A stretch of 51,108 nt of DNA from Rubellimicrobium roseum. Lineage in GTDB: Bacteria > Pseudomonadota > Alphaproteobacteria > Rhodobacterales > Rhodobacteraceae. A program made the translations under genes and the position numbers. How positions within the stretch are numbered: position 1 is the stretch's first letter; each line of letters opens with the position of its first letter. The DNA is taken from contig NZ_VDFV01000024.1 in assembly GCF_006152145.1 (NCBI RefSeq), forward strand, positions 1 to 51,108, in the 5' to 3' direction. Under the pieces are notes generated by a model. The model had not been told where the DNA came from and did not search any database. It saw only the letters and a list, made by a program, of their open reading frames with translations. Shown here piece by piece: positions 719-36,572 of the stretch.

Positions 719-2782
719 CTAACGCAGCGCCGCCTCGATGTTGCCGCCGTCGACCGTCATGGCATGGCCAGTGGTTCTCTCGGCGAGAGCCAGCATCACG
801 AAGGCCTCGGCCACGTGACGCGCCTCGACCTCCTGCCCCAGGAGGTTGCCGGCCATGTAGCGCTCGGGCGTGACACCCCTCGCTTGTGCGCGCTCGGCAA
901 TGAAGGCCTCGGTTACAAGGCCTGAGCGGATACGGTCGGCGTTCACCCCGTTCACGCGGATCCCCTCGGGACCGAGCTCGAGCGCGAATTGACGCAGCAG
1001 GAAGAAGGTCGCGGCCTTGGGCAGACCGTAGGCGCCGAAGCCCTTTCCCGGGTTCACGGCCTGCTTGGAGACGTTGAAAATAATCTGCCCGCCCGCCCGC
1101 CCGCCCAGTCCACGGGCCTGCTCGCGGAAGACGGCGACCGCCGCCTGCGCCAAGGCCTGATGGGCGAAGAAGTTGAGCTCGAAGCTTTCGCGCAGAGTGG
1201 CGTCGGAGAGCGTTGCCATCTCGCCCTGCCAGGCGGCGCCGGCGTTGGAGAGGAGGATGTCGAGCCCGCCGAAGCGGCGGACGCAGGCGGCCACGATCCG
1301 CGCCGCCGCGCCGGGGGCGGTCAGGTCCGCCGCCACCGCGCCATGGTCCCGCCCCAGGTCCTTGAGCGCGGCGCCGAGCGCGCCCTCGTCGCGGTCGGTC
1401 AGGACCACGGTTGCGCCCTGCCCTGCGAAGGCCCTGGCCGCCGCACGCCCGATAGCTCCGGCCCCGCCTGTCACGAGCACGATGCGGCCCTGGAGCGGGG
1501 GCTTGGCGCCCTTGCCAAGCTTGGCCTGCTCCAGCGACCAGTACTCCATGTCGAAGGTGTCAGCTTCGCCAATAGGGTGGTAGCCGCCGACGGACTCGCC
1601 TTGCTCCATCACGCGCAACGTCTGCGTGCCGATGTCGCCCGCGATGCGGGCGGCGGCGGCTGTCGCGCCGACGCCCACCACGCCTAGCCCCTCGGCCCAG
1701 ACAAGGCCGGGCATGGGCGGGAGCATCGTCTTGGGCGTGGCGGCGCGCCTGGCCTGCCGGTCGAAGTACGCGCGGTACCGGTCAGCGAAGGCGACCACGG
1801 CCTGCCGCATCGCCTCGGGGCCGGCTTCCAGCGTCGGGCGGTTGAGGTGCAACGGACCGGCTTTGGTGCGGATCACATGGTCTGGCGTGGCGACGCCCCG
1901 CGTGGCGAGGTCCGCGAGGTCAGGGCGTTCAAGAAAGCTTCGCACCCCATCGTCGTCGCGCAGGTCGAGGACGGGCAGCGCCGCGCGCTTGGGGAGAGCC
2001 GAAGCGAGCGCCCCCCGAAGCGCGGCCAGGACAGGCCCGGCCTCTGGGTCGGACCGGCGCGCCTGCGCGGGGCGGTTCGTGGGACGACCCTGGGCCGCGA
2101 GCCAGACCGCGACATCGTTGGTCTGGTCGATCAGGCGATCGTAGGATTCGCGCGGGGTCGCGCCCCAGGTGAAGTGGCCGTGGTTGACAAGAAGCAGGCC
2201 CTCGGCCTCGGGATGCGCGTCGCGGACGGCTGCCGCCGCCTTGGCCAGGGCGAAGCCCGGCATGATGTAGGGCACGAGCGCGAGGCGCGACCCGAAGATC
2301 TCGCGCACGGCTGCCTCGACCTCGGGCAGGTTCGCCAGCGCCAAGAAAGGCGTGGCGTGGGTGTGGTCGATCACCCGGTCGGGGAGCCAAGCGTGGAGCA
2401 GCGTTTCCACCGATGGATTCGGCGCAGCGCTGTCGAGGAGGTTGGCGCGCTGGACATTCACCATGGCCTCGTCCGACAGCGCGCCGAGTCCCCGCAAGCG
2501 GTGGAGCGGCTGGAGCCGCACGGCCGGCAGGCCCGCGGGCGTGATCGAGTCGAGGTCGGCCCCGGAACCCTTGACATGCAGGACCTCCACCTCGTCGCCA
2601 AAGACGTCGCGGGCAGTGAGCTTGATCGAAGTGTTGCCGCCTCCATGCATCACGAGGTCCGGCACGCGGCCGATCAGGCGCGAGCTGTAGACGCGGAGCG
2701 CGAGCAGCCGGGCATTCGGGTCGTCGCCTGCCGCCGTCTCGAACGCCGCCGCTTCGTCGTCGCGCCACAAGTTCTCGAACAT
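719..2782 (-). CDS. Bifunctional class II aldolase / short-chain dehydrogenase (RhaD-SDR type)
   Basis: This 687-residue cytoplasmic enzyme has two domains. Residues 1 to about 400 are a class II aldolase/adducin domain, with a GGGNTS phosphate-binding segment near 47-52, a metal-binding HTH at 140-142 and NHGH at 200-203. Residues from about 430 are a short-chain dehydrogenase with a TGGAGAIG nucleotide-binding loop at 438-445, NAG at 513-515 and YxxxK at 585-589. The architecture and length match the rhamnulose-1-phosphate aldolase/alcohol dehydrogenase family, which cleaves a ketose 1-phosphate to DHAP plus an aldehyde and then processes the aldehyde. No rhamnose isomerase or kinase is nearby. 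The partner kinase and isomerase are MtnK- and MtnA-like, so I infer that the substrate is a 5-modified ribulose 1-phosphate rather than rhamnulose 1-phosphate. The ATG at 2782 has a GGGGAGGGGG ribosome binding site. The gene diverges from the SorC regulator across a shared operator. Confidence 0.85.
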   Translation of the reverse strand: MFENLWRDDEAAAFETAAGDDPNARLLALRVYSSRLIGRVPDLVMHGGGNTSIKLTARDVFGDEVEVLHVKGSGADLDSITPAGLPAVRLQPLHRLRGLGALSDEAMVNVQRANLLDSAAPNPSVETLLHAWLPDRVIDHTHATPFLALANLPEVEAAVREIFGSRLALVPYIMPGFALAKAAAAVRDAHPEAEGLLLVNHGHFTWGATPRESYDRLIDQTNDVAVWLAAQGRPTNRPAQARRSDPEAGPVLAALRGALASALPKRAALPVLDLRDDDGVRSFLERPDLADLATRGVATPDHVIRTKAGPLHLNRPTLEAGPEAMRQAVVAFADRYRAYFDRQARRAATPKTMLPPMPGLVWAEGLGVVGVGATAAAARIAGDIGTQTLRVMEQGESVGGYHPIGEADTFDMEYWSLEQAKLGKGAKPPLQGRIVLVTGGAGAIGRAAARAFAGQGATVVLTDRDEGALGAALKDLGRDHGAVAADLTAPGAAARIVAACVRRFGGLDILLSNAGAAWQGEMATLSDATLRESFELNFFAHQALAQAAVAVFREQARGLGGRAGGQIIFNVSKQAVNPGKGFGAYGLPKAATFFLLRQFALELGPEGIRVNGVNADRIRSGLVTEAFIAERAQARGVTPERYMAGNLLGQEVEARHVAEAFVMLALAERTTGHAMTVDGGNIEAALR
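1087..1106. repeat. (GCCC)5 tetranucleotide repeat inside the aldolase/SDR gene
   Basis: Five perfect GCCC units (GGGC on the coding strand) lie in the dehydrogenase half, between the NAG and YxxxK motifs, and encode a Gly/Arg/Ala-rich turn. Gain or loss of one unit would shift the frame before the catalytic Tyr-Lys pair. Five units is short for a true contingency repeat. Confidence 0.6.
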
Positions 2783-2833
2783 CCGACCCCCTCCCCTTTG
2801 TCGCCGTTGACCTCAGGGCGGTTTTCGACAGAA

Positions 2834-2849
2834 GTCAAGAAACCCTGAC
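2834..2849. promoter_or_regulatory. Putative SorC-family operator (GTCA-N8-TGAC) between aldolase and regulator genes
   Basis: The palindrome GTCA-N8-TGAC lies between the divergent aldolase/SDR and SorC regulator genes. The identical half-sites with identical spacing recur at 6259-6274 in the mtnK/transporter divergent promoter. On the minus strand the left half-site overlaps a -35-like TTGACT (2833-2838) aimed at the aldolase gene, which fits control of that promoter. Assignment to the adjacent regulator is inferred from position and repetition. Confidence 0.55.
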
Positions 2850-2867
2850 AAATGACGGAGCATGGGG

Positions 2868-3830
2868 ATGGTGGGCGGGCGGCGGCGCGGGCCGGGGCGC
2901 ATGGGCGGCGACGTGCTGATCGAGGTCGCTTGGCTCTACTATCAGGACGGTCTCAATCAAAAGGAAATCGCCGACCGGCTGGGCCTGTCGCGGGCGACCG
3001 TGGTGAACCATCTCCAGGAGGCGCGGGCGCAGGGCCTCATCCGCATCTCGCTGGCCGCCCCGGCCTTTGTGCAGCATCGGCTGGCGGTCGCGCTCTGTGA
3101 GAGGTTCGGCCTCCGCGCTGCCTATGTCCTGCCCGACGAGGGGCTGGCGGAGGAAGAGCAGTTCCGCCGCGTCGTGGCTGGGGGCGCGATGTGGCTGCCG
3201 TCGCTCCTCGGGCCCGGGGACCGGCTGGGGGTGGCCTGGGGACGGACGGTGCATGACTTGGCAGAGGCCGTAGAGCCGAGTCGCGTCCCCGACCTGACTG
3301 TCCTTCAACTGGTAGGCAGCATGGCCACCCCTTACGGCTTCACCGCCGAGGCCTGCTCGACGCTCCTTGCCCAGCAGCTCGGCGCGCGCTGCGTCAACAT
3401 CTTCGCCCCGGCGATCCTGAGCCGGCCGGAACTGGCGGAGGAGTTGCGGGCCGAGCCAATCCTGCGGGCGCAGCTCGACCAGATCGGAACGGTGAACAAG
3501 TTCCTGTTCTCAACCGGCACCGCCGGACCCGACAGCCACATCGTCCTCTCGGGCCTCGCCACGGCAGAGGACCTCCGCCGCAACGTCGCCAAGGGGGCGG
3601 CGGGGGTGATCTGCGGGCGCTTCGTGGACGAGAGCGGGCGGGCGGTGCCGGACGTCATGGAGGAGCGCATGATCGGCGTCCCCCTGCCTCGCCTCGTAGG
3701 GCTGGAGATGGGGATCATGGTCACCCCCGGGCATGACAAAGTCCTACCGTCGCTCGCTGCGATCCGGGGGGGTTATGTCACTCACCTCGTGACCGGGGCG
3801 AGCGTGGCCGAGGCGATGCTGTCCGCCTAG
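2868..3830 (+). CDS. SorC/DeoR-type sugar-responsive transcriptional regulator
   Basis: This is a DNA-binding regulator of about 320 residues, the usual SorC-family length. An N-terminal helix-turn-helix ([19 protein letters not shown], roughly residues 30-50) is followed by a sugar-binding domain resembling the NagB/RpiA fold, with the family-typical LVGSMATP and [10 protein letters not shown] segments. Effectors in this family are usually phosphorylated sugars, so here a pathway sugar phosphate would be expected. I chose the ATG at 2868 because GGAG at 2857-2860 is then 7 nt upstream; the in-frame ATG at 2862 would place that site directly against the start. The gene diverges from the aldolase/SDR gene. 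It converges on mtnA, and the two stop codons share the tetramer CTAG at 3827-3830. Confidence 0.85.
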
Positions 3831-4939
3831 ACCTTGTTGGCCCGGTCGGGGAACATGGTGGCCAGCGCCTCGGGCGAGGCTTCGCAGACGCCGCGCTCGG
3901 TGATGAGGCCGGTGACCAGCGCCCTTGGCGTCACGTCGAATGCGGGGTTGCGCGCGTCCGTGCCGTCGGGAGAGACCTGCACCGTCACGATCCGGCCTTC
4001 GGCGTCGCGGCCCTGGACATGGGTGACCTCGGCGCCCGATCGTTCCTCGATGGGAATCTCCCTGACGCCGTCCTTCACGGTCCAGTCGATGGTGGGCGAC
4101 GGGAGCGCCACGTAGAAAGGCACCTCGTTGGCCCGCGCGGCCAGCGCTTTCAGGTAGGTCCCGATCTTGTTGCACACGTCGCCGTTCGCCGTGGTCCGGT
4201 CGGTGCCGACGATCACCATGTCAACCTCGCCGTGCTGCATCAGGTGGCCGCCCGCGTTGTCCACGATCAGCGAATGCGGCACGCCGTGGGAGTTCAGCTC
4301 CCAAGCGGTGAGCTGCGCGCCCTGGTTGCGGGGGCGCGTCTCGTCCACGAAGACGTGGACGGGGATGCCCGCCTCGACCGCTTGGTAGATGGGCGAGGTT
4401 GCGGTGCCCCAGTCCACCGTCGCGGGCCAGCCGGCGTTGCAGTGGGTGAGGATGCGCACGGGCTCGCCCGGCTGCTTCTTGGCCGCGATGTCCCGAATGA
4501 TGGCGAGGCCGTGCTCGCCTATCTTCCGGTTCATCTCCACGTCCTCCTCGCAGATCGTGTCCGCGCGGGCAAAGGCCGCTCGGGCACGCTCCTCGGGCGG
4601 CAGGGGGCGCAGGCGGGCCCGCATGTCGTCCAGCGCCCAGCGCAGGTTGATCGCGGTGGGGCGCGTCTCGTGCAGCACCTCCCAGGTTTCGTCCAGCGAG
4701 GCGTTGGAGGGGTCCTCGGCCATCTGCACGGCCACGCCATAGGCGGCCGTGGCGCCGATCAGGGGAGCGCCGCGCACCCACATGTCGCGGATCGCGACCG
4801 CGAAGGCCTGCCGATCAACCAGCGCCTCGATCCGCAGGTCGTGGGGCAGCCAGCGCTGGTCGATGATCTTCACCACGCCCCAGGGCGAGCCGTCCTCCTC
4901 GCGCCAGATGGAGCGGAAGGGTTTCCCGTCGATCTTCAT
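3827..4939 (-). CDS. mtnA: Methylthioribose-1-phosphate isomerase family protein (MtnA homologue)
   Basis: This 370-residue protein belongs to the eIF2B-like aldose-1-phosphate isomerase family, which converts 5-methylthioribose 1-phosphate to the ribulose 1-phosphate. Visible signatures are [16 protein letters not shown], an ETRPTAINL segment, the CNAG loop carrying the expected catalytic cysteine, [17 protein letters not shown], and [18 protein letters not shown] with the expected catalytic aspartate. The ATG at 4939 overlaps the mtnK stop (TCAT at 4936-4939, read as ATGA on the minus strand) and has an AAGGGA site upstream. The open frame continues upstream to 5128, but that part is arginine/proline/histidine-rich and lies inside mtnK. 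No mtnB, mtnC, mtnD or mtnE homologue is in the window, so the classical methionine salvage pathway is not supported here; a DHAP-shunt-like use is more likely. Confidence 0.88.
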
Positions 4940-6189
4940 AGCCAATCCCTTTCCGAGATGCTGCGCGTGAGGCCGAGGAGCGCCTCGATGCCTGCGATGT
5001 CCCCCTGCCCCATCAGGAGCGCACGGCCCAAGACCAGTGCCTTGGCCTCGCAAGCCGCGCGAAGACCCTCGTCCGCGATGCGCTCGAACTCGGCGTTGTG
5101 GGCGAGGCCCAGGATGCGGCGGTGGCATTCAAGGCCCGCGATGCCCAACGCGTCGCGCCAGACCTGCCCCAGCCACCGTTCGCGCGCGGACTCGGCGGCC
5201 CAGGCCTGGCTCTGATCCTCGAAGAGCGTCCGAGGGAACAGCATTCCCGTCCGCTCCGTGCGCCACAGATGGGTGAACTCGGCCGTGAAGTTCGTCCAGA
5301 TCGCGCGGACGACGGACAGGATCCACTCCTGATGGTCAGCGCGGTCGCCGTGGCCGGGCTGCGCGCAATGGGCCATCAGGAAATTGGCCATCAGCATGCC
5401 GACGTCGAAGCCCATGGGCCCGTACATCGCGAACTCGGGGTCGATGACGCGGGCCCTGTCGCCCTGCACCATGACGGAGCCGGTGTGGAGGTCGCCGTGC
5501 AGCATCGTCTCGGCGCGAGTGGCAAAGGCGGCCTTGAGCCGCTGTGCCTCGATCTTGAGAGCGGCGTCGGCGCGAAGGTCCCGGACGATCGGATCGAGCG
5601 CCGGCGTGTGACGGTTGAGCGGGGCATCGAAGTAGGGCTCGGTGAACACGAGCGCCTCGGTGATGTCGCACAGCTCCACGTTGCCGGCGAAGAGAGCGAG
5701 GTCAGCTTTGCGATCGGCGGCAGACATCGACAGGTCCGAGCCGCGGAACAGCGTGCGCGCGCAGAAGCGGCCGAGAAACTCGCCCAGGCCCTCGTGCCGG
5801 TTCCCCTCGATCAGGCTGCGGCGCAGGATGATGTGGCCGTCGAGGTATTCCATGACGATCAGTGCCTGCGCCTCGTCGAAGTGGATCACCTCTGGCACGC
5901 TGCCCGGGTCGCGCGCATCCTGCCGGCGGAGCGCGTGATATTCGAAGAAGGAGCGCCGCAGCGGCAGCGGCCAGCTTTCGCCCACGAGCCGAACGTAGGG
6001 CAGCGCCTGTTTGACCACGAGCCCGCCCGCCTCGCCCTCGACGATGAAGACGAGGTTGAGATTCCCGTCGCCCACCTCGCGCACCTGCCACGTCCCCGCA
6101 TCGCCCAGACGGTCCCGCAACGCGGGCAGGTCGCCCAGCCGCTGCGGCAGCGTCTCCACCGTCAGGGGGGCATAGGGGTCCTGCATCAT
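4936..6189 (-). CDS. mtnK: S-methyl-5-thioribose kinase family protein (MtnK homologue)
   Basis: This ATP-dependent sugar kinase of 417 residues has a protein-kinase-like fold. It would phosphorylate the anomeric hydroxyl of 5-methylthioribose or a related 5-substituted ribose. Family marks are the [13 protein letters not shown] glycine-rich segment near the N-terminus, the catalytic HGDLHTGS loop and the metal-binding [13 protein letters not shown] segment. The length matches MtnK. The ATG at 6189 is preceded by CGGGAG with 6 nt spacing. The open frame reaches 6270, but that upstream part contains the -10 and -35 elements and the operator, so it is not coding. The gene is translationally coupled to mtnA through an ATGA overlap and is controlled from the divergent promoter it shares with the ABC importer. 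Confidence 0.9.
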
Positions 6190-6234
6190 CGAAAACTCCC
6201 GTTCGTCGGGCCTCCTCCCGGGCCGCTTGGCCGG

Positions 6235-6263
6235 ATAATCCCCGCATTCCTGTCTTTTGTCAA
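6235..6263 (-). promoter_or_regulatory. Candidate sigma-70 promoter for mtnK-mtnA
   Basis: On the minus strand, a perfect -35 TTGACA (6258-6263) is separated by 17 nt from GATTAT (6235-6240), which matches the -10 consensus at four of six positions. The predicted start of transcription is near 6228, about 40 nt before the mtnK ATG. The -35 lies inside the operator palindrome, which suggests repression by steric exclusion. Confidence 0.5.
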
Positions 6264-6283
6264 AGCGCATTGACTTTTGACAG
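6250..6283. promoter_or_regulatory. Extended operator palindrome in the mtnK / ABC-importer divergent promoter
   Basis: The sequence has an outer CTGTC (6250-6254) paired with GACAG (6279-6283) and an inner GTCA-N8-TGAC core (6259-6274). The core is the same palindrome seen at 2834-2849 next to the SorC regulator gene. It overlaps the minus-strand -35 and contains a perfect TTGACA on the plus strand (6277-6282) that may serve the importer operon, although no good -10 is visible on that side. Confidence 0.6.
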
Positions 6284-6320
6284 GCGATGGGGTCGCCTGC
6301 AGGGAAAGAGGGAGGATGGC

Positions 6321-7823
6321 GTGGACGGCTCGGCGATCCGCGTGAGGGGGCTCAGCAAGGCGTTCGGGCCCAACCGAGTGCTGCGGGGCATCGACTTCGA
6401 CCTGCCAGCGGGGGCAGTCACGGTGCTCATGGGCGCGAACGGCGCGGGCAAGTCGACGCTCGTAAAGGTGCTCTGCGGCGTCCACCCGACCGACCGGGGC
6501 GAGGTCACGCTGGGCGGGCGGCCCTTCGCGCCGGGCTCGCCCGCGCAGGCCCTGCGCGCGGGCGTCGTGACCGTGCATCAGAACATCGACGACGGCGTGG
6601 TGCCTGACCTCGACGTGGCATCGAACCTTCTGCTCGACCAGATTGCGGACGGGTCCGTGGGCGTGGCCTCAGGCCGCAAGCTGCGGGACCGCGCTCGCGC
6701 CGTGGCCGAGGCGGTGGGACTCCGCGTGGACCTGCGCCGGCCGATGGCGGAGCTGCCGCTTGCCGACCGGCAACTCGTGGCCATTGCGCGGGCCATGGCG
6801 CACAAGCCGCGCCTGCTGATCCTCGACGAGCCCACCTCGTCGCTCTCGGCCGCCGAGGCCGAGCGCCTCTTCGCACTGATCGACCGGCTTCGGGCACAGG
6901 GTGTGGCTCTCCTCTACATCTCGCACCGCATGTCGGACATCCGGCGCATCGCCGACAGGATCGTGTCGATGCGCGACGGGGTCGTGTCGGGGGTCTTCGA
7001 AGCCCAGCCGCTCGACACCGGGGGCGCGGTGCGGGCAATGCTCGGCCGCGACCTGTCCGAGGCCGCCATCACCATCCCGGCGCCGGGGCCGGTCGTACTG
7101 TCGATGCAGGGTACCGTCCTTAGGCCGGGCGCACGTCCCTTCGACCTAATCGCGCGGGCGGGCGAGGTCGTCGCCGTCACCGGCCTCGTCGGCGCGGGAA
7201 AGTCGGCGCTGGCGGCCGCGCTCTTCGGGCTCGCGGCGCCGGTAGCGGGCGCGATGCGTTTGGACGGGGCGCCGTACGCGCCCGCCTCGCCCATCGCAGC
7301 CATCGCCCGCGGCGTCTACATGGTCCCGCGGGACCGGCGGGCGAACACGCTGATCGCGGACTTCGACATCGCGCGGAATCTGTCCTTGCCCTTCCTGCGC
7401 CGCCATGCACGCGGTCCCTTCCTGCGCCGCCGCTCCGAGGCCGCCTTGGGCGCCCGCATGGTGGCCGAGATGGGCGTGGTCTGCCGCTCGCCGCGTGACG
7501 GCATCCTCACGCTCTCGGGCGGCAACCAGCAGAAGGTGGCGGTGGGGCGCTGGATGGCCGAGGCCTCGCGTCTCCTCGTCCTCGACGAGCCGTTCCAGGG
7601 TGTGGACATCCAGGCCCGGCGCGACATCGGTGCCAAGATCCGTGCGACCGCGCGGGACCGGGCCACGCTGGTACTGGTCGCCGAACTGGACGAGGCCATG
7701 GAGATCGCCGACCGAATCCTCGTGATGAGCGAGCACACGGTCGCGGGCGAGCACCGCAACGAGAACCTCGACCTGTCCTCCGTCATGCGACAGGTCACCG
7801 ACGCGCACGGAGCCGCCGCATGA
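6321..7823 (+). CDS. Sugar ABC transporter ATP-binding protein (RbsA/MglA type)
   Basis: This 500-residue protein has two tandem nucleotide-binding domains, typical of carbohydrate-uptake-2 importers. Domain 1 has Walker A GANGAGKST, a signature region reading LPLADRQLVAIARAM and Walker B LLILDEPTS. Domain 2 has GLVGAGKSALA, LSGGNQQKVAVGRWM and LLVLDEP. It would energise uptake with the permease and binding protein that follow. I prefer the GTG at 6321 because GGGAGG is 5 nt upstream and translation then begins just before the first beta strand (AIRVRGLSKAFG). The open frame extends to 6270, but that part overlaps the operator. Its stop overlaps the permease start (ATGA). Confidence 0.9.
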   Translation: MDGSAIRVRGLSKAFGPNRVLRGIDFDLPAGAVTVLMGANGAGKSTLVKVLCGVHPTDRGEVTLGGRPFAPGSPAQALRAGVVTVHQNIDDGVVPDLDVASNLLLDQIADGSVGVASGRKLRDRARAVAEAVGLRVDLRRPMAELPLADRQLVAIARAMAHKPRLLILDEPTSSLSAAEAERLFALIDRLRAQGVALLYISHRMSDIRRIADRIVSMRDGVVSGVFEAQPLDTGGAVRAMLGRDLSEAAITIPAPGPVVLSMQGTVLRPGARPFDLIARAGEVVAVTGLVGAGKSALAAALFGLAAPVAGAMRLDGAPYAPASPIAAIARGVYMVPRDRRANTLIADFDIARNLSLPFLRRHARGPFLRRRSEAALGARMVAEMGVVCRSPRDGILTLSGGNQQKVAVGRWMAEASRLLVLDEPFQGVDIQARRDIGAKIRATARDRATLVLVAELDEAMEIADRILVMSEHTVAGEHRNENLDLSSVMRQVTDAHGAAA

Positions 7824-8809
7824 CCGCCCGGGACCTCGCCATCCGCTATGGCTTCCTCGTGCTGATGGCGGGCCTCATCGTGGTTTTCGGCGTGACGGCG
7901 AGCGGCTTCCTGACGGTGCCCAGCGCGGTCTTCATCCTTCAGTCGGTGGCGATCACCGGCATCCTGGCGCTGGGCGTCACCTGCACGCTGGTCGTCGGTG
8001 GCTTCGACCTGTCCATCGGTGCGGTCGCCACCTCGGCCCTGATGCTCTCGGCCTATGTCATGGTGGTGTGGGAGATGGGCGCGGTCGCGGCGGTAGCCTT
8101 GTGCCTACTCATGGGCGCGGGCGTGGGGCTCATCAACGGGTTCCTCATCGTCAAGATGAAGGTGCCGGACCTGCTCGCGACGCTCGGCATGATGTTCGTG
8201 CTCCTGGGCATCCAGCGTATTCCCACGGAAGGAAACTCGATCGCCACCGGCATGGCGCTGCCGGACGGGACGACGGCCACGGGAACCTTCTCGCCCGCCT
8301 TCCTGGCACTGGGGCGGCTGCGGCTTGGGGACGTGCTGCCTCTGTCGGTGGTGTTCCTGCTTCTCATCGCTGTGCTGGTCTGGAGCTTTCTGGAACTGAC
8401 GCGCCATGGGCGGCTCATGTACGCCATCGGCTCCAACGCGCAGGCCGCTGCGCTCGCCGGGGCGAACGTCGAGCGTTACAAGGTCGCGGCCTACGTGATC
8501 TCGGGGGTGCTGGCCTCGGTAGGCGGCATCCTTCTGGCGGCGCGGCTCGGGCGCGGGGACGTGGCTTCGGGGAACAACCTTCTCCTCGACAGCGTGGCGG
8601 CGGCGCTGATCGGCTTCGCGGTGCTGGGGGCCTCCAAGCCAAACGCCTTCGGCACGGCCATCGGCGCGCTCTTCGTGGGCATCCTGCTGCAGGGTCTCAC
8701 GATGCTGAACGCCCCCTACTACACGCAAGACTTCGTGAAGGGGGCGGTCCTGGTCGTGGCCCTCGTCTTCACATTCGCGCTGACCGGGCGGCGAACCCGG
8801 AGCGCCTGA
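7820..8809 (+). CDS. Sugar ABC transporter permease (RbsC type)
   Basis: This is an integral inner-membrane permease of 329 residues with about 8-10 hydrophobic segments. It carries the family segments GGFDLSIGAV near the N-terminal third and GSNAQAAALAGANVERYKV in the cytoplasmic coupling region. It forms the channel for the ATPase encoded just upstream, whose stop codon it overlaps by ATGA. The C-terminal GASKPNAFGTAIGALFVGILLQG region is typical of RbsC. Context points to uptake of the sugar that is then phosphorylated by the divergent MtnK homologue. Confidence 0.9.
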   Translation: MTARDLAIRYGFLVLMAGLIVVFGVTASGFLTVPSAVFILQSVAITGILALGVTCTLVVGGFDLSIGAVATSALMLSAYVMVVWEMGAVAAVALCLLMGAGVGLINGFLIVKMKVPDLLATLGMMFVLLGIQRIPTEGNSIATGMALPDGTTATGTFSPAFLALGRLRLGDVLPLSVVFLLLIAVLVWSFLELTRHGRLMYAIGSNAQAAALAGANVERYKVAAYVISGVLASVGGILLAARLGRGDVASGNNLLLDSVAAALIGFAVLGASKPNAFGTAIGALFVGILLQGLTMLNAPYYTQDFVKGAVLVVALVFTFALTGRRTRSA

Positions 8810-8833
8810 CGGCCAACCTTGGGAGGAGAAACC

Positions 8834-9883
8834 ATGCTGAACAGACGGACCTTCGGGGCGCTTCTCGCCTCCGCCGCGCTCGCGCCGGGGCTGGCGCTGG
8901 CGCAGTCCATGCCCGCCCCCTTCGACAATCCCGGCGAGGTCGAGATCGCGTTGGTGCGCTATCTCTCCACCGGCGACTTCTTCCAAGCCTATCTGTCGGG
9001 CGTGGAGCGTCAGGCCGAAGCGCTGGGCGTGAACCTGCGCGTGCTCGACAGCCGGCAGGACGCGGCGCTTCAGGCCGACATGGTGGACCAGGCCATCGCG
9101 CTGGGCGTGGATGGCATCATCATCCAGCATGGCCTGACCGAGTCGATGAAGGAGGCCGCGCAGCGGGCGCTCGACGCCGGCATCCCCGTCGTGGCTTTCG
9201 ACGTGAACGTCGAAAACGAGAACATCCCGCAGATAGAGCAGTCCGACCGCGACCTCGCCCGCCTCGCGCTCGAGCAGGCCATCGCGGACAACGGCGAGGA
9301 ATGGACGGCCGGCTACGTCTACGTGCCGGGGATCGCGCCGCTCGACCGCCGTCACGAGACCTGGACCGAGTTCAAGGAACGCTATCCGGGGATCAACGAG
9401 GTCGCGCAGTTCGGCACGCTCGACAACCCCATCGCCAACTCGGTTGCCAACCAAGCGCGTTCGGTAATCTCGGCCAACCCGAACATCACCGTCATGTTCG
9501 CGCCTTACGACGAGTTCGCCAAGGGCGTGAAGATCGCCGTGGACGAGGCGGGGATGTCGGGGCAGGTCTCGATCTATTCGGCCGACATCTCGACCGCCGA
9601 CATCGCCGCCATGCGCGAGCCCGGGTCGGCCTGGAAGGCCACCGCCGCGACCAATCCCGCCGTGGTGGGCGAGGTCTCTGTGCGGGCGCTGGCGATGCTG
9701 CTGGCGGGCGAGGACCCGGGCGATCAAGTCATCGTGCCGCCGACGCTCATCACGCAACAGCAGCTCAACGACGAGAACATCACCAATATGGAGGAGTTGT
9801 CGGCCCGCGTGCCCGCCTTCGCCCATGCGGACGTGGCCGCGCCCGACTGGATGCCCCTGCCCAGCGCGCCGTCGCAGAACTGA
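8834..9883 (+). CDS. Periplasmic sugar-binding protein of the RbsB-like ABC importer
   Basis: This is a 349-residue secreted type I periplasmic binding protein. It begins MLNRRTFGALLASAALAPG and has a likely signal-peptidase site after ALA near residue 23; the RR-T-F start also resembles a Tat motif. The mature part shows RbsB-like features, including DMVDQAIALGVDGIIIQHG and VPVVAFDVNV-like strands (here IPVVAFDVNVE). The ATG at 8834 has a strong GGGAGGAG 8-12 nt upstream; an earlier in-frame start at 8819 lies before this site and is not favoured. A hairpin between this gene and the transketolase genes probably lets the binding protein be made in excess. Confidence 0.9.
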   Translation: MLNRRTFGALLASAALAPGLALAQSMPAPFDNPGEVEIALVRYLSTGDFFQAYLSGVERQAEALGVNLRVLDSRQDAALQADMVDQAIALGVDGIIIQHGLTESMKEAAQRALDAGIPVVAFDVNVENENIPQIEQSDRDLARLALEQAIADNGEEWTAGYVYVPGIAPLDRRHETWTEFKERYPGINEVAQFGTLDNPIANSVANQARSVISANPNITVMFAPYDEFAKGVKIAVDEAGMSGQVSIYSADISTADIAAMREPGSAWKATAATNPAVVGEVSVRALAMLLAGEDPGDQVIVPPTLITQQQLNDENITNMEELSARVPAFAHADVAAPDWMPLPSAPSQN

Positions 9884-9892
9884 GACAGCCGG

Positions 9893-9913
9893 GGGCGCGG
9901 CTCGTCCGCGCCC
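9893..9913 (+). terminator. Intra-operon attenuator hairpin after the sugar-binding protein gene
   Basis: An 8-bp GC stem (GGGCGCGG 9893-9900, CCGCGCCC 9906-9913, loop ctcgt) follows the binding-protein stop by about 10 nt and has no U tract. The downstream genes are close and codirectional, so partial termination or 3'-end protection is more likely than full termination. Confidence 0.45.
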
Positions 9914-9933
9914 TCCCCCAAGGAGGCCCCGCC

Positions 9934-10863
9934 TTGCGCAACGAGCGAACAACCGAGGACGTGGCCCGAGGCATCCGCCGTCGGGTCTTCGAGCATTCCA
10001 TCCGTAACAACGGCGGCTACCTGAGCCAGGCCTGCTCAGCCGCCGAGCAGCTCGCCTTCCTCTATAACGAGGCGCTGAACCTCGGCCCCTCGACCCGGCC
10101 CCTGGTCCCGCCGCCCTTCGCAGGCGTACCCTCGGCAGGCAACCCGGACTACGTGACGGGCGCGGGCTACAACGGGCCGTTCACGCCGGAGCATGACCGC
10201 CTGTTCATCGCGCCCGCGCATTACGCGCTCGTGGCCTATGCCTGCCTGATCGAGGTCGGGCGGATGGCACCCGAAGGGCTGGAGCAGTTCAACAAGGACG
10301 GCAGCAGCGTCGAGATGATCGGGGCCGAGCATTCTCCCGGCATGGAGGTCCACAACGGCACGCTGGGGATCGGGCTCTCGACCGCTGCGGGCCTTGCCTG
10401 GGGTCGCAAGCGCAAGGGCGAGGCGGGAAAGATCTGCGTCTTCATGTCGGACGGCGAGGTGCAGGAAGGCCAGACCTGGGAAGCCGTGCAGGCCGCCGCG
10501 CACCACCGGGTCGACAATCTCTGGGCCGTCATGGACGTGAACCGGCAGCAATGCGACGGCGCCATGGACAGCGTCATGGAGGTGGGCGACATCGCCGCCA
10601 AGCTGCGCCAGTTCGGCGCCGTGGTGGCCGAAGTGGACGCGCACGACCTTGCCGCGCTGCGCGAGGCGGCGGGGACCGAACACGCAGGGCGACCCTTGAT
10701 CGTGCTCGCCCATTCCTCGCCCACGAAGGGGATGGAGTTCCTAATGCGCCGCTTCCCGCGCCTCCACTACGTCCGCTTCAGGGACGAGGCCGAACGGCGC
10801 GAGATGAACGCGGCGATCGCGGCCGAGCTGGGCGTGCCGCCCGTCGAGTTGGAGGCCCACTGA
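9934..10863 (+). CDS. Transketolase, N-terminal (TPP-binding) subunit
   Basis: This 309-residue protein corresponds to the first half of transketolase. It carries the thiamine-diphosphate motif (MSDGEVQEGQTWEA near residue 172) and the expected HSPGMEVHNGTLG-type loop. The start is an unusual TTG at 9934, supported by a perfect AGGAGG 7 nt upstream (9921-9926); no ATG or GTG is available before the conserved region. Split transketolases form A2B2 complexes with the partner encoded next. In D-apiose catabolism a split transketolase (AptA/AptB) cleaves apulose 4-phosphate, and others serve in general or sugar-specific C2 transfer. Which applies here cannot be told from sequence alone. Confidence 0.88.
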   Translation: MRNERTTEDVARGIRRRVFEHSIRNNGGYLSQACSAAEQLAFLYNEALNLGPSTRPLVPPPFAGVPSAGNPDYVTGAGYNGPFTPEHDRLFIAPAHYALVAYACLIEVGRMAPEGLEQFNKDGSSVEMIGAEHSPGMEVHNGTLGIGLSTAAGLAWGRKRKGEAGKICVFMSDGEVQEGQTWEAVQAAAHHRVDNLWAVMDVNRQQCDGAMDSVMEVGDIAAKLRQFGAVVAEVDAHDLAALREAAGTEHAGRPLIVLAHSSPTKGMEFLMRRFPRLHYVRFRDEAERREMNAAIAAELGVPPVELEAH

Positions 10864-10864
10864 C

Positions 10865-11866
10865 ATGGAGATGGTGAACCGACCCTACGCGAAGGCCTTC
10901 GAGGACTACGCCGTCCGGCACCCCGAGGTGCTGTGCCTCTCGGCGGACCTCACCTCCTCCTGCGAGGTCGACGGCTTCCGCGACCGCAATCCCGACCAGT
11001 TCCTGAGCCTCGGCATGGCCGAGCAGAACATGATGAGCTTCGCGGGCGGCCTAGGCCTCGCGGGGTTCCGGCCCTTCCTGCACTCCTTCGGCGTGTTCCT
11101 ATACCGGCGGCCCTACGACCAGCTCATGGCCTCGGTCGCCTATCCGCGCCGCAAGGTCCGGCTCATGGGCTTCCTGCCGGGCGTGACGACGCCGGGCGGC
11201 ATGACCCACCAGGCGATCGAAGACATCTCGATCATGCGCACGATTCCCAACATGACCGTGCTGGAGGCCGGGGACGCCACCGAGGTCGAGAGCATCGTGG
11301 CCGAGGCCGACACGGTGGACGGTCCGGTCTACTGCCGTATCCTGCGCGGCTCCGTCCCCCGCCTCTTCGACACGCCCCTGAAGGTCGGCCGGATGCGCGT
11401 GCTGGCCGAAGGGTCGGACGTGCTGGTGGTCACGGCCGGGATCGCCACCGAAGAGGCGCTGCGCGCGCGGGGCGCGCTGGACCGCGCGGGCGTGTCAGTG
11501 CGCCACCTGCACCTGAGCACCCACAAGCCCTTCGACGCCGCCCAGATCGTCGACCACGCGGTCAGCGTCCGGCACGGCGTCGTCACGCTGGAGAACCACC
11601 TCGTCACCGGCGGGATCGGCAGCATGGTCGCCGAGGCACTGGCCGAGGCGGGGCTGGCCAAGCGCCTCGTGCGGCTGGGCTTGCAGGACACTTACGCGCA
11701 CGGCGGCTCGCGGCCCTACCTCATGCGGCACTACGGGCTCGATGCGCTGGCGCTGGTGCGCGGCGTGGAACGGCTGACAGGCCAGAGCACCGGGATCACC
11801 GAAGAGGACCTGAGCGCGGTGCGCGTCGAGGCCGTCCATTCGGCCGTGAAGGCGGAGGCGCTGTGA
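10865..11866 (+). CDS. Transketolase, C-terminal subunit
   Basis: This 333-residue partner carries the pyrimidine-binding and C-terminal transketolase domains. The key segment SLGMAEQNMMSFAGGLGLAG contains the glutamate expected to activate the thiamine cofactor, followed by GGMTHQAIEDISIMRTIPNM, which is diagnostic of transketolase/DXS-like proteins. It starts one base after the stop of the N-terminal subunit, so both are probably made in equal amounts. It overlaps the RuBisCO-like gene by GTGA at 11863-11866. Together with the kinase, isomerase and aldolase it suggests a catabolic route that includes a two-carbon transfer or cleavage. Confidence 0.88.
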   Translation: MEMVNRPYAKAFEDYAVRHPEVLCLSADLTSSCEVDGFRDRNPDQFLSLGMAEQNMMSFAGGLGLAGFRPFLHSFGVFLYRRPYDQLMASVAYPRRKVRLMGFLPGVTTPGGMTHQAIEDISIMRTIPNMTVLEAGDATEVESIVAEADTVDGPVYCRILRGSVPRLFDTPLKVGRMRVLAEGSDVLVVTAGIATEEALRARGALDRAGVSVRHLHLSTHKPFDAAQIVDHAVSVRHGVVTLENHLVTGGIGSMVAEALAEAGLAKRLVRLGLQDTYAHGGSRPYLMRHYGLDALALVRGVERLTGQSTGITEEDLSAVRVEAVHSAVKAEAL

Positions 11867-12972
11867 GCCGCTTCGCCGTCACCTACCGCATCCGGGCCAC
11901 CGACGCCGCCGAGGCCCGCGCCCGCGCCGAGGGCATCGCCTACGAGCAGACGGTCGAGGTGCCCCCCGACGTGGTGCCCCCCGGCTTTGTCCGGGACGAG
12001 ATCGTGGGCCGGATCGAGGAGATCGGCCCCGACAGCGACGGCTTCCGGGCGACCATCTCCTACAGCCCCGAGAGCGCGGGAGACGACTTCCACCAGTTCC
12101 TGAACGTCGTCTTCGGCAACTCCTCGCTGCAGAAGGGCATCCGTGTCATCGCCATCGACCCGGGCCCCGAGATCCGGCGCCGCCACCCCGGCGCGCGCTT
12201 CGGCGTCGAGGGCATCCGCCGCATGGCCCGGCGGCCCGAGGGCGGACTGATCTGCCCCGTCCTCAAGCCGCAGGGCATCGGGGCCGAGGAGATCGCGCGC
12301 ATCGCCTGTCTCTGCGCGCTGGGCGGGGCCGACATCATCAAGGAGGACCACGGCCTTTCGGACCTGCGCACCGCCCCCTTCCGCGCGCGGGTCGAAGCGG
12401 TCGTCGCCGCTCTCGACCGCGCCGAGCTCGAGACGGGACGGCGTCCCGCCTATTTCGCCACCCTGCCCGGCCCCTTCGAACGGATCGAGGCGAACCTCGC
12501 CTTCGCCAAGGCGGCGCGGGTGGACGGGCTTGTCGTGATGCCGGGTCTCTTCGGTTGGGGACTTGTGTCGCGGATCGCCCGCGACGAGGCGCTGAACCTC
12601 GCTGTCATGATGCATCCGAGCCTCACGGGCCCCTTCGTGGTGTCCGAGGGGTCGGGGATGGATTGCGCCGTGATCTACGGCACGCTCCAGCGCCTCGCGG
12701 GGTCTGACCTGTCCATCTTCCCCAACGTGGGCGGCCGATTCGGCTTCACGGAAGGCGACTGCCGCGCCATTGCAAAGGCCTGCCTGGACCCGAATGGCCC
12801 CGGTCGCCCGATCCTCCCCAACCCTGGCGGCGGCATGAGCGTGGACCGCGCGCAGGAGATGCAGGCCATGTACGGTCAGGACGTGGCCTATCTCCTGGGC
12901 GGGAGCCTCCTGCGCCACGGCGAGGGGCTGGGCGCCGAGATTGCGCGGATGCGTCGGGCGCTGGACGGCTGA
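11863..12972 (+). CDS. RuBisCO-like protein (form IV), predicted non-carboxylating
   Basis: This 369-residue member of the RuBisCO large-subunit superfamily is shorter than true RuBisCO. Recognisable positions are NVVFGN (81-86), the KPxG motif with K135 (equivalent to K175), GGADIIKEDH with K160 (carbamylated K201) and D162 (D203), H251 (H294) and the phosphate-binding GG at 346-347. The usual KDDE is KEDH, so the E204 metal ligand is a histidine; no loop-6 lysine is evident and the S379 SGG is NPGGG. It is therefore not a CO2 fixer. Known RuBisCO-like activities include DK-MTP-1P enolase, MTRu-1P isomerisation and, in D-apionate catabolism, a 3-oxo-isoapionate-4-phosphate decarboxylase. The GTG start overlaps the preceding stop and has GGAGG just upstream. 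Confidence 0.85.
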   Translation: MSRFAVTYRIRATDAAEARARAEGIAYEQTVEVPPDVVPPGFVRDEIVGRIEEIGPDSDGFRATISYSPESAGDDFHQFLNVVFGNSSLQKGIRVIAIDPGPEIRRRHPGARFGVEGIRRMARRPEGGLICPVLKPQGIGAEEIARIACLCALGGADIIKEDHGLSDLRTAPFRARVEAVVAALDRAELETGRRPAYFATLPGPFERIEANLAFAKAARVDGLVVMPGLFGWGLVSRIARDEALNLAVMMHPSLTGPFVVSEGSGMDCAVIYGTLQRLAGSDLSIFPNVGGRFGFTEGDCRAIAKACLDPNGPGRPILPNPGGGMSVDRAQEMQAMYGQDVAYLLGGSLLRHGEGLGAEIARMRRALDG

Positions 12973-12979
12973 GGGCCGC

Positions 12980-13828
12980 TCATTTCCTGCGTCCGGGCGT
13001 TTCGTCCGCGCCATCCCTGACGCGTTCCGACAGGCGCTCCAGGAAGTCGGTGAGACCGGCCTCAGGGTCCGTGGTCTGCGAGGTCACGACCGTCAGGCCC
13101 CACCGCGCGAGCACGGCCTTCTGCGCCGGACCCGCACGGGGCAGGAAGATGTAGCTGCGTGGCCGGTTCCGCTCGTAGGGCGACCGGCTCCAGCTCTCCC
13201 AGATCCGGTGCAGGAGCAACCGGATGTTCAGGTCCCGCAGCGAGTAGCCGATGAAGAGAAGCGTCCGGCTCATCGCGTCAGCGCGGAACTTCACGTCCAG
13301 CGGGCTGTCGAAGCTCATGCGCGAGAAGTAGTCGGACTCCGTGATGACGAGGCTCGCGTCATCCTCGAAGTCACCGTGGAACTTGACTATCTGCGTGCAG
13401 GTCGGGTCGGCGATGGTCAGGTCGCGCTCGTTGGCGATCTTGACATAGGGCTGGCCCTGCGCCTCGAAGGCGACCTCCAGGTTGCGGTCGTAGTTGGTCG
13501 TGTAGATCAGAGGAAACCCCAAGGACACGATGAGCTGGTGGATGCGCGAGTCGCGCACGCTGTCCTCGCTCACCTTCCATTCGCGGTCCATCCAGCTGCG
13601 CAGGGGGCCGATCGTCCCGTAGCGGATGCGGTAGTATTCGGCCAGGATCGGGTGGCCCAGGCTCGCCTCGGGGTCGGTCTCGGGCTCCAGGCCCAGTTCC
13701 TCCATGATGTGGTCGATCAGCGCCTGCCACGACGGCAGGCCCACGGTCATCGAGATCCCCGCCCCGACGAAGAGGATCGCCCGGCGGTCCCGGACGGAGG
13801 CGGCGAGGTCGTCAAGGTCGTCCTGCAT
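12980..13828 (-). CDS. Stand-alone SIR2-like domain protein
   Basis: This 282-residue protein consists essentially of one SIR2-type NAD-binding domain. Visible are the nucleotide-binding FVGAGIS (20-26), TTNYD (110-114), the catalytic-type HGD with H151, and GYSLRDLN (194-201). The zinc-ribbon cysteines of true deacetylase sirtuins are absent. Such SIR2-like domains act as NAD+ hydrolases in several antiphage systems, but stand-alone proteins of this size are also common and uncharacterised. The ATG at 13828 is the first codon before the conserved region; the open frame extends further but overlaps the divergent MFS gene. It has a weak ribosome binding site. No companion effector or sensor gene is adjacent. 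Confidence 0.75.
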   Translation of the reverse strand: MQDDLDDLAASVRDRRAILFVGAGISMTVGLPSWQALIDHIMEELGLEPETDPEASLGHPILAEYYRIRYGTIGPLRSWMDREWKVSEDSVRDSRIHQLIVSLGFPLIYTTNYDRNLEVAFEAQGQPYVKIANERDLTIADPTCTQIVKFHGDFEDDASLVITESDYFSRMSFDSPLDVKFRADAMSRTLLFIGYSLRDLNIRLLLHRIWESWSRSPYERNRPRSYIFLPRAGPAQKAVLARWGLTVVTSQTTDPEAGLTDFLERLSERVRDGADETPGRRK

Positions 13829-13970
13829 GGGACGGGGAACGGGGGTGGCCCCGCCGGGTTCCCGGCCCGGCTTGCGCCTTGGGCCCGACTGGCCTACGGC
13901 GCGGAGACCGCGGGAACCCGCCGCCGGTCCGCAGCTTGCATTCTCGCCATCCCTTCCGCCGGAGGCCGCC

Positions 13971-15278
13971 ATGAGATCCATCGCCGTCGAGGACGCGCTG
14001 ACGCGGGCCGGCACCGGCCCGTTCCAGAAACGCCTCCTGGGCGTCTTCGGCTTCGTCTGGGCCGCCGATGCCATGCAAGTGCTGGCCGTGGGTTTCACCG
14101 CCCCCTCCATTGCCGCAAGCTTCGGCCTCACGGTGCCGCAAGCGCTCCAGACGGGAACGCTGTTCTTCCTGGGGATGCTGGTGGGGGCGAGCCTCTTCGG
14201 CCGTCTGGCCGACCGGATCGGGCGCCGCCGCGTGCTGCTCGTGACGGTGGCCTGCGACGGGATCTTCGGGCTCCTGTCGGTGTTCGCGCCCTCCTTCGAA
14301 ATGCTGCTTGCGCTGCGCTTCCTGACCGGCGCGGCGGTGGGGGGCACGTTGCCCGTGGATTATGCGCTCATGGCCGAGTTCCTGCCGCCCCGGTCGCGCG
14401 GGCGGTGGCTGGTGTTCCTCGAAGGCTTCTGGGCGGTGGGCACGGTGGCGATCGCGCTGGCCGCCTGGGCCCTGAGCGGGGCGGGCGTGGCCGAGCCCTG
14501 GCGATGGCTCTTCGCCCTGACCGCTCTGCCCGCGCTCATCGGGATCTGGCTGCGGCTCTGGGTCCCGGAATCGCCCATGTACCTGCTGCGCCGGGGCGAG
14601 GCGGCCGAGGCCCGCGCCGTGCTCGACCGCGTGCTCGTAGCCAACGGCCAGCCGCCGCTGGACGGCCCAGTTGTTGCTCCGCCCGCGCGCCCCTCGGCGG
14701 GGCTCCTGTCGCCGGGGCTGCGCCGGCTCACCCTTCTGGTGCTGCCGGTCTGGTTCCTGGTCTCGATCTCCTACTACGGCGTCTTCACCTGGATGCCGGC
14801 GCGGCTGGCGGGCGAGGGCTTCGGCTTCGTGCGCGGCTACGGCTTCATCCTGCTCATCGCGCTGGCGCAGCTTCCGGGCTATGCGCTGGCGGCCTACGGG
14901 GTCGAGCGCTGGGGCCGCAAGCCCACGCTGATCGGCTTCCTCCTGCTCAGCGCCGCCGCCTGCCTGCTCTTCGTGCTGGCCCAGAGCGCCCCCCTGATCG
15001 CGGCCTCCCTCCTCATCATGAGCTTCGCGCTGCTCGGCACCTGGGGCTCGCTCTACGCCTTCACGCCCGAGATCTACCCGACCGCGAGCCGCGCCACCGG
15101 CATGGGCGCGGCCAGCGCCATGGCCCGGCTGGGCGGGCTCCTGGCGCCGTCGGCCCTGGCCGTGGTGGTCGCGCAGGGCTTCGGCGCGGCGGTGGGGCTC
15201 TTCGCGGCGCTCCTCCTTCTCGCGGCCGCCGTCGCGGCGCTCATCGACGTGGAGACGCGAAGCCGCCCGCTCGCCTGA
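13971..15278 (+). CDS. MFS transporter (NiaP/sugar-porter-like)
   Basis: This 435-residue protein has twelve predicted hydrophobic segments. The loop 2-3 signature GRLADRIGRRR and the segment LPVDYALMAEFLPPRSRGRW resemble the NiaP/SV2-like branch of the major facilitator family, which moves nicotinate, aromatic acids or other small organic acids. A second half-repeat signature, YGVERWGRKP, lies after helix 8. The ATG at 13971 has GGAGG 6 nt upstream. It diverges from the SIR2 gene and is followed by a small protein gene, so the substrate is not indicated by context. Confidence 0.85.
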   Translation: MRSIAVEDALTRAGTGPFQKRLLGVFGFVWAADAMQVLAVGFTAPSIAASFGLTVPQALQTGTLFFLGMLVGASLFGRLADRIGRRRVLLVTVACDGIFGLLSVFAPSFEMLLALRFLTGAAVGGTLPVDYALMAEFLPPRSRGRWLVFLEGFWAVGTVAIALAAWALSGAGVAEPWRWLFALTALPALIGIWLRLWVPESPMYLLRRGEAAEARAVLDRVLVANGQPPLDGPVVAPPARPSAGLLSPGLRRLTLLVLPVWFLVSISYYGVFTWMPARLAGEGFGFVRGYGFILLIALAQLPGYALAAYGVERWGRKPTLIGFLLLSAAACLLFVLAQSAPLIAASLLIMSFALLGTWGSLYAFTPEIYPTASRATGMGAASAMARLGGLLAPSALAVVVAQGFGAAVGLFAALLLLAAAVAALIDVETRSRPLA

Positions 15279-27908: not shown

Positions 27909-28064
27909 CCCGGCCCGACAGTCAGGAAATCCCGACCGCGCGAGGAGTTGCCTCCAGGGCTTGCCAAGAGGGGCGGCTTGCGCCTTGATGGCGCCCGGGC
28001 CGCGGTCTACGCCGCATCGACCGCGCGCCTTTTCGGCCAACAGGGTAACGCGGCGGGCTTTCAC

Positions 28065-31936: not shown

Positions 31937-32855
31937 GCCTCGACCTTCCTGCCCTCCGCGCGGCGGTCGCCACCCAAGGCGCGGTGGTCCGCATCCTCGT
32001 GGTCACCGTCGCGGGCTCGGTCCCGCGCGAGGCCGGGACCTCCATGCTCGTCTGGGCAGGCGGCGAGGACGGCACCATCGGCGGGGGCGAACTGGAGAAC
32101 CAGGCCATCGCCGAGGCGCGGGCCATGCTGGCCGAGCCCGCGCCCGCCCCGCGGCTGCGCCCCATCCCGCTCGGGCCCGCGCTGGGCCAGTGCTGCGGCG
32201 GCTCGGTCACGCTCGCCTGGGAGCGGTTCGACGCCGCCACGCTCCCGACCGCGCTGCCCTACACGCGGCCCCTCGGGGGCAGCGCCACCCCGCGCCCCGC
32301 GCTCGACCCCGCGCCCGGCACGCCGCCGCAGGTCCGCGACGGCTGGCTGGTCGAGACCGCGCCCGCGCCGGGTCGCCCGCTCTGGGTCTGGGGCGCGGGC
32401 CATGTCGGGCGCGCGATCGTGGACGTGCTGGCCCCCTGGCCGGGCGTGGCGATCACCTGGATCGACCTGGGCCCCGACCGCTACCCCGACCGCGTGCCCG
32501 CGGGCGTGACGAGACTGCCCGCCGCCGAGCCCCCCGCGCTGGTCCGCTACGCGCCCACCGACGCCGACCATCTGGTCCTCACGCGCTCGCACGAGCTCGA
32601 TCTCCAGCTCTGCCACGCGCTCCTGCGGCACGGCTTCGCCAGCCTCGGCCTGATCGGCTCGGCCACCAAGATGGCCCGCTTCCGCACAAAGCTCGCTGCG
32701 CTTGGCCACACGGCCGCTCACATTTCGCGCATTGCCTGCCCGATAGGCGATCCCACCTTGGGAAAGCACCCCCAAGCCATTGCCGTCGGCGTCGCCGCTG
32801 CGCTAATGCGGGCCGCAGGGGCAGGCGATCTACGCCAGGAAAGGGACGCGACCGG

Positions 32856-32859
<4 letters not shown>
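31933..32859 (+). CDS. xdhC: Xanthine dehydrogenase accessory protein (Mo-cofactor insertion)
   Basis: This 308-residue XdhC/CoxI-family chaperone binds the molybdenum cofactor and delivers it to XdhB. Family marks are REAGTSMLVW, GTIGGGELENQA, GQCCGGSVTL with adjacent cysteines, a Rossmann-like VWGAGHVGRA and GLIGSATKMARF. ATGA overlaps join it both to xdhB and to the ABC ATPase that follows, so enzyme assembly and purine uptake are expressed together. Confidence 0.92.
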
Positions 32860-34379
<1,520 letters not shown>

Positions 34380-36541: not shown

Positions 36542-36572
36542 GAGGCGTCTCATCCAAGCAGGGAGTTTTGGC

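Follow-up and report, generated by a model that had tools for sequence, protein, structure and literature searches.

Polyamine synthesis and radical-SAM chemistry leave methylthioadenosine (MTA) and 5-deoxyadenosine as wastes, the sugars of which can be excreted. Two described systems lie closest to the locus examined here. The dihydroxyacetone phosphate (DHAP) shunt consists of MtnK or MtnP, MtnA, and a class II aldolase, Ald2/DrdA (passages of PMC6079011 and PMC12632272), and the MTA-isoprenoid shunt of Rhodospirillum rubrum and Rhodopseudomonas palustris employs a RuBisCO-like protein (RLP) of the DeepYkr type together with a cupin methylsulfurylase (passages of PMC5893883). On the analyzed stretch of Rubellimicrobium roseum DNA (NZ_VDFV01000024.1, positions 1 to 51,108; hereafter the window, 51,108 nucleotides), ten genes between positions 719 and 12972 form a conserved unit that includes an RLP and the two halves of a split transketolase, TktN and TktC. 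We consider it probable, though far from settled, that they constitute one regulon for the uptake and breakdown of 5-methylthioribose (MTR), and probably of 5-deoxyribose too, with two exits.

The locus resembles the DHAP shunt in its kinase, isomerase, class II aldolase, and sugar transporters (passages of PMC6079011 and PMC12632272), but its aldolase is fused to a dehydrogenase, and an RLP and a split transketolase are added; the word transketolase is absent from the main texts of both papers. As in the MTA-isoprenoid shunt, the RLP would work after MtnA, and the same intermediate would supply both an RLP branch and an aldolase branch, as it does in R. palustris, which also has the cupin (passages of PMC5893883). 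In contrast to that shunt, the split transketolase here would occupy the place of the cupin. A crude cupin motif scan, made beside the DeepYkr RLPs of other loci only (L143 to L155 and L051), returned implausible open reading frames (ORFs) alone and was uninformative.

All ten genes claimed by the initial annotation are open at the coordinates below and match their own families in family searches. Corrections from the sequence place the start of tktN most likely at the TTG at 9934 and that of rbsA near 6321.

719..2782, minus strand: fused class II aldolase/short-chain dehydrogenase (SDR); NF006192, 850 bits versus a cut-off of 639; PF00596 and PF00106; proposed exit 1
2833..2850: operator-like site, 10/12 matches, between the aldolase fusion and sorC
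2862..3830, plus strand: SorC/DeoR-type regulator with Sugar-bind domain; PF04198, 169.8 bits
3827..4942, minus strand: MtnA, 5-methylthioribose-1-phosphate isomerase; TIGR00512, 425 bits versus a cut-off of 279
4936..6186, minus strand: MtnK, 5-methylthioribose kinase; TIGR01767, 474 bits versus a cut-off of 275
6258..6275: operator-like inverted repeat TGTCAA-N6-TTGACT, 11/12 matches, between mtnK and rbsA
6321..7823, plus strand: RbsA-like ATP-binding cassette (ABC) ATPase, start uncertain; sugar-ABC family match in Pfam
7820..8809, plus strand: RbsC-like ABC permease; PF02653
8834..9883, plus strand: RbsB-like binding protein, closest to 4RY8; sugar-ABC family match in Pfam
9934..10863, plus strand: TktN, N-terminal half of the split transketolase; PF00456; TTG start by homology; nearest structure 6YAK
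10865..11866, plus strand: TktC, C-terminal half of the split transketolase; PF02779 and PF02780 (pyrimidine-binding and C-terminal domains); nearest structure 6YAJ
11863..12972, plus strand: RLP, proposed 5-methylthioribulose-1-phosphate 1,3-isomerase; PF00016, 49.1 bits versus a cut-off of 30.1; nearest structure 3QFW

MtnK and MtnA both exceed their curated cut-offs, as the DHAP shunt requires of its kinase and isomerase, and family scores place a class II aldolase domain, fused to an SDR, beside them. The initial reading of these genes as a putative DHAP-shunt core is supported.

Conservation of the gene neighborhood and its operator-like sites

Conservation was examined in a family sample of 198 genomes, that of R. 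roseum included, and by a contig profile search with the RLP. The latter turned up 188 places where a relative is encoded; the best 80 (L061 to L140, partly from genomes already in the family sample) were kept, 61 of them with full flanks. By their record titles, the 80 loci belong to Alphaproteobacteria or to metagenome-assembled genomes labelled Proteobacteria or Pseudomonadota. Within the family sample, the RLP was matched at E ≤ 1e-20 in 23 of the 198 genomes, strongly in 14. TktN, TktC, and RLP are contiguous in 13 of 13 strong family relatives; 11 of these also have MtnK and MtnA nearby, and a twelfth has a diverged MtnA.

Among the 61 full-flank loci, TktN and TktC stand beside the RLP in 58, separated from the RLP match by 0 to 24 bases after the end of TktC; in the remaining three, the transketolase is on a different contig. 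MtnA is present in 56, MtnK and SorC in 51 each, RbsA, RbsB, and RbsC in 50 each, and the aldolase fusion in at least 43, a lower bound because many loci end inside that gene. The combination of MtnA, MtnK, TktN, TktC, and RLP occurs in 48, and all ten genes, at looser thresholds, in 33. Four of the 80 loci are without TktC (L107, L112, L119, and L125). A check of the genomes of 13 odd loci picked by the analyst, together with that of R. roseum, recovered TktC at ≥75% identity in 14 of 14 (in two pieces in the genome of L125) and MtnA in 13 of 14, the one miss being a 2.3-Mb assembly.

Across the family sample, TktC at ≥74% identity occurs in 16 genomes, namely, all 14 RLP genomes plus G029 and G109. 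MtnA occurs in 61 of the 198, including 14 of the 14 RLP genomes (its identity in G002 is 48%), whereas 28 genomes, 12 of the 14 among them, have MtnK; Fisher tests of these co-occurrences leave relatedness uncorrected. In a class sample of 385 genomes, the RLP was detected at E ≤ 1e-20 in 18, and TktC at ≥59% identity only in R. roseum, G398, and G539. G398 (L142) carries RLP, TktC, TktN, and MtnA together, with a phosphorylase-like gene close by. TktC at E ≤ 1e-75 was found in 6 genomes of a phylum sample of 378, all of the same class, one of which (G866) has RLP, MtnA, and MtnK beside TktC.

Rough ORF clustering of the 80 loci, in which TktC and RLP fall in one cluster, yielded one further recurrent family (F10), mutarotase-like, in 15 of 80 loci (63 bits versus a cut-off of 141, thus below it), and beyond it no further conserved family in more than 13 loci; the next (F11, 13 loci) has an example that overlaps rlp on the opposite strand. 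The F10 gene, FucU/RbsD-like, lies near rbsB (L078:11129-11569 and 14 other loci), and one published 5-deoxyribose cluster likewise holds a fucose-mutarotase homologue (passages of PMC6079011).

The divergent mtnK/rbsA region contains the inverted repeat TGTCAA-N4..6-TTGACA. When at least 10/12 matches are required, a site lies upstream of mtnK in 64 of 64 regions, window included, which is no independent evidence because the motif was picked after viewing those regions. Sites also lie upstream of the aldolase fusion (26/57), of sorC (27/62), and of tktN where it starts its own unit (21/45), and where tktN is positioned behind rbsB the count is 4 of 31. Control regions upstream of rlp and rbsC have 3/81 and 0/63, respectively, and other ORFs of the same loci 7/447; when the bases of the stand-alone tktN regions were shuffled, the mean was 0.81 and the maximum 3 in 100. 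The TTGACA half resembles a -35 box, but regions upstream of ordinary genes are part of the 447-ORF control. A site was also present at 10 of 13 mtnK genes tested outside the 80 loci; for those in genomes with no RLP match, the count is 8 of 10. We infer that the SorC protein binds these sites.

The conserved neighborhood and the shared operator-like sites support the earlier proposal that these genes together import and degrade a modified pentose, here read as a single regulon for one modified at C5. The accompanying suggestion that the transketolase and RLP genes be checked for conservation with mtnK and mtnA is answered in favor of that proposal by the 48 full-flank loci above, and by the presence of the mtnK operator-like site at 21 of the 45 stand-alone tktN genes.

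Probable imported sugar, RuBisCO-like protein, and split transketolase

The best solved relative of the binding protein is 4RY8, titled 5-methylthioribose transporter solute binding protein TLET_1677, both by sequence (phmmer, 228.7 bits; next match, 129.8) and by fold (Foldseek rank 1, E = 7e-31, 39% identity, from a model of mean pLDDT 78). By this relationship, the modified pentose of the initial annotation can be sharpened: the imported sugar is most likely MTR. 5-Deoxyribose is probably also a substrate. The structures nearest to MtnK are 2OLC, a methylthioribose kinase, and 2PYW, recorded as uncharacterized, which we take to be the Arabidopsis MTR kinase. The R. roseum genome has a single MtnA match, the window copy, and an MTA phosphorylase (449.7 bits versus a cut-off of 437), and therefore endogenous MTA could enter the pathway.

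In six variant clusters (L112, L126, L127, L135, L138, and L142), MtnA, RLP, or transketolase genes accompany a purine nucleoside phosphorylase and/or a deaminase-like gene. The phosphorylase is above its cut-off in L112 and L126 and assigned by similarity in L127, L135, and L142; the deaminase-like protein is assigned by similarity in L138, and in L112 and L127 it has 5'-deoxyadenosine deaminase among its matches, all below cut-off. Molybdopterin S/N-oxide reductases of the BisC family lie beside or near the transketolase and RLP genes in L126 (3559-5874), L137 (11131-13431), L139, L133, and L170 (11649-13964), scoring 909 in L126 and 848 in L137, both below the cut-off of 1018. They hint that methylthio sulfoxides are perhaps substrates that are reduced there.

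The RLP exceeds the Pfam RuBisCO_large cut-off and fits no named RLP family at curated cut-offs: it scores 148 versus 409 for PRK09549 (MtnW), 109 versus 514 for TIGR03332, and 62 versus 700 for OiaX, the 3-oxo-isoapionate-4-phosphate decarboxylase of apionate catabolism, which belongs to the same RuBisCO superfamily. On the first two scores, a role as MtnW enolase (YkrW RLP) was rejected. Two further RLPs are encoded in the R. roseum genome, one an OiaX (781.6 versus 700) and the other unassigned (408 versus 700), at G000:C69 (L042:9372-10643) and G000:C85 (L043:9175-10413).

The best solved relative of the window RLP is 3QFW, an RLP of R. palustris, by sequence (188 bits) and by fold (E = 2.4e-34, 31% identity; model pLDDT 89.5), and the two have in common the motifs LKPQG, K-x-DHGL, HP, FPN-x-GGRF, and GGSLL. 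R. palustris RLP1 converts 5-methylthioribulose-1-phosphate to 1-methylthioxylulose-5-phosphate and 1-methylthioribulose-5-phosphate in a 3:1 ratio (passages of PMC5893883). 3QFW is presumably RLP1, 2QYG being titled rlp2. In RLP trees, which took in 33 of the 80 loci (L051 was left out of the final tree), the 14 DeepYkr rows, 3QFW among them, form a clade with support of 100/100. The window RLP neighbors this clade together with L141 and L142 but lies outside it, a further difference from the MTA-isoprenoid shunt; the transketolase-linked rows fall outside it as well. Two rows, L002 (wrong strand) and L001, are doubtful, so the root is not trusted; the outgroup rows are poor.

The nearest solved relatives of TktN and TktC are the subunits of the Carboxydothermus hydrogenoformans split enzyme (6YAK/6YAJ), likewise a two-subunit transketolase. 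Cluster copies were aligned against Escherichia coli TktA, whose numbering is used here. The thiamine diphosphate (ThDP)/Mg residues D155 and N185, and also H66, are kept in 76 of 76 copies, H473 and R520 in 77 of 77, and S385 and E411 in 76 of 77, with one gap. The substrate residues, in contrast, are absent: H26 is Tyr in 75 of 76 copies (one gap), H100 is Met in 76 of 76, and D469 is Gly in 77 of 77, whereas 6YAK/6YAJ retain all three. H461 is Phe in 77 of 77 copies and Thr in 6YAK/6YAJ. H261 falls in a gap in every row, and no cluster copy has Arg at the R358 position, where the alignment is loose. The row labelled own_TKT reads as a DXS-like protein of the genome and is no transketolase control. 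L142 has Leu at the H100 position. DXS, the second-best family match of TktC, is also without H100.

We take H100 (yeast H103) to contact the C1 hydroxyl of the donor and D469 (yeast D477) to contact an acceptor hydroxyl. The loss of H100 would thus fit a donor without a C1 hydroxyl, such as a C1-methylthio donor. The title of a study of yeast H103 stands in the reference list of PMC3352088. Another two-subunit transketolase, SqwGH of sulfoquinovose catabolism, serves a sulfur-bearing sugar (passages of PMC11659671).

L165 (G014; 52-53% identical) and L161 (G109; 72-75% identical) encode split transketolases with the same signature, and the stretches read there contain no RLP gene. In L138, a second transketolase/aceE-like protein of 780 residues is encoded directly behind the RLP gene (11147-13486).

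Proposed pathway and rival explanations

In the pathway that we propose, the ABC importer would take in MTR, MtnK would phosphorylate it at C1, and MtnA would then yield 5-methylthioribulose-1-phosphate. Exit 1 would be the known DHAP shunt, the aldolase of the fused enzyme giving DHAP and an aldehyde that its second domain would oxidize or reduce. At exit 2, the RLP would act like R. palustris RLP1 and shift the carbonyl, forming 1-methylthio-xylulose-5-phosphate, which the dedicated split transketolase would cut between C2 and C3, releasing glyceraldehyde-3-phosphate and leaving a methylthio two-carbon unit on ThDP. That unit may be passed to an aldehyde acceptor or may lose methanethiol. 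A second exit for methylthioribose is the most likely role of the RLP and the altered transketolase. The second branch that the initial annotation offered for this pair is most likely one for the same sugar, after MtnA; the alternative it offered, a second sugar, is weighed below.

A specific and doubtful version makes the transketolase methanethiol releasing, converting 1-methylthio-xylulose-5-phosphate to glyceraldehyde-3-phosphate, methanethiol driven out of the bound two-carbon unit, and acetyl-phosphate or acetate. Analogous chemistry is provided by sulfoacetaldehyde acetyltransferase, which expels sulfite, and by phosphoketolase, which expels water. Such an enzyme, with MtnK, MtnA, and the RLP, would give an oxygen-independent route needing neither cupin nor glutathione, by which methylthioribose would be turned wholly into central metabolites and methanethiol.

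Several observations weigh against the proposed pathway as a whole. The RLP is below every named RLP cut-off and only about 31% identical to 3QFW, and the alignment of H100 depends on local spacing. The transketolase signature is also found in L165, where this RLP is missing, so the residue changes mark a subfamily and do not prove a link to the RLP. The two genes are apart in L107, L112, and L119, with the transketolase on another contig, and a close TktC is present in G109 and G029 (75 and 76% identity) with no RuBisCO-family match. TktC of G029 is near a contig end; G109 is not accounted for in that way and speaks against strict pairing. The operator-like site is below threshold at 24 of the 45 stand-alone tktN genes, and outside the 80 loci it is present at 2 of 10 tktN genes and at none of the other 8.

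An unlikely alternative is that the regulon serves two sugars, MtnK, MtnA, and the aldolase fusion handling MTR or 5-deoxyribose while the RLP and transketolase act on another sugar phosphate, with importer and regulator shared. In its favor, clusters with exit 1 only in the stretch read do exist (L157, L159, L163, and L168 have importer, MtnK, MtnA, and aldolase fusion, with no RLP or transketolase nearby), RLP and transketolase are apart from MtnK and MtnA in some genomes, and TktC occurs without an RLP match in G109 and G029. On the other hand, all 14 RLP genomes of the family sample have MtnA, against 61 of the 198 overall, and in L126, L127, L135, L138, and L142 the RLP/transketolase genes stand with MtnA and with a gene for a nucleoside phosphorylase, a deaminase-like protein, or both, with no MtnK in the stretch; moreover, the nearest characterized RLP uses the product of MtnA (passages of PMC5893883). 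A quite improbable variant restricts the locus to 5-deoxyribose, the RLP making 1-deoxyxylulose-5-phosphate (DXP) from 5-deoxyribulose-1-phosphate to feed isoprenoid or cofactor synthesis, with the transketolase returning surplus DXP to glyceraldehyde-3-phosphate. The likeness of TktC to DXS, including the missing H100, agrees with this variant, as does the Drd kinase, which takes 5-deoxyribose and MTR alike (passages of PMC6079011), but DXP would require no transketolase, the binding protein is closest to an MTR transporter protein, and the BisC-family reductases hint at sulfur.

The lead toward apiose or apionate in the initial annotation would have the split transketolase act on apulose-4-phosphate, for which a split transketolase exists, and the RLP on 3-oxo-isoapionate-4-phosphate. 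RLPs do act in apiose pathways (passages of PMC6302742, citing Carter et al. 2018). This reading is very improbable and was rejected on the family scores: the RLP falls far short of the OiaX cut-off, a separate OiaX is encoded elsewhere in the genome, and the kinase and isomerase exceed the MtnK and MtnA cut-offs.

Flanking genes and significance

Just behind rlp, an ORF ends on the opposite strand (12980-14101, minus strand) that has no NCBIfam match at 1e-30 and contains a GAGIS motif, presumably that of SIR2-like proteins. About 15 kb from the regulon, window positions 27921-37664 encode subunits of a xanthine dehydrogenase (577.7 and 1182 bits, above cut-offs) and, after them, an ABC importer, for whose genes the best NCBIfam scores fall short of the cut-offs; together they are possibly a purine uptake and oxidation set. 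A glutamine-synthetase-family protein at 46465-47796 matches gamma-glutamylputrescine synthetase below the cut-off.

Among the open-license papers listed in full by the literature searches, judged by title and beginning of abstract, none describes a transketolase joined to an RLP in methylthioribose metabolism, though such a description may exist elsewhere. The comparison suggests that the known part of this locus would be the DHAP shunt and that the exit through RLP and transketolase would be a salvage route for which no description was found. If the reading is true, a dedicated transketolase behind the RLP would be a new breakdown route for the sugars of MTA and 5-deoxyadenosine, and methanethiol would perhaps have one more source. 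An RLP lineage so far unassigned, which recurs across the genome collection, would gain a role, as would a subfamily of split transketolases.

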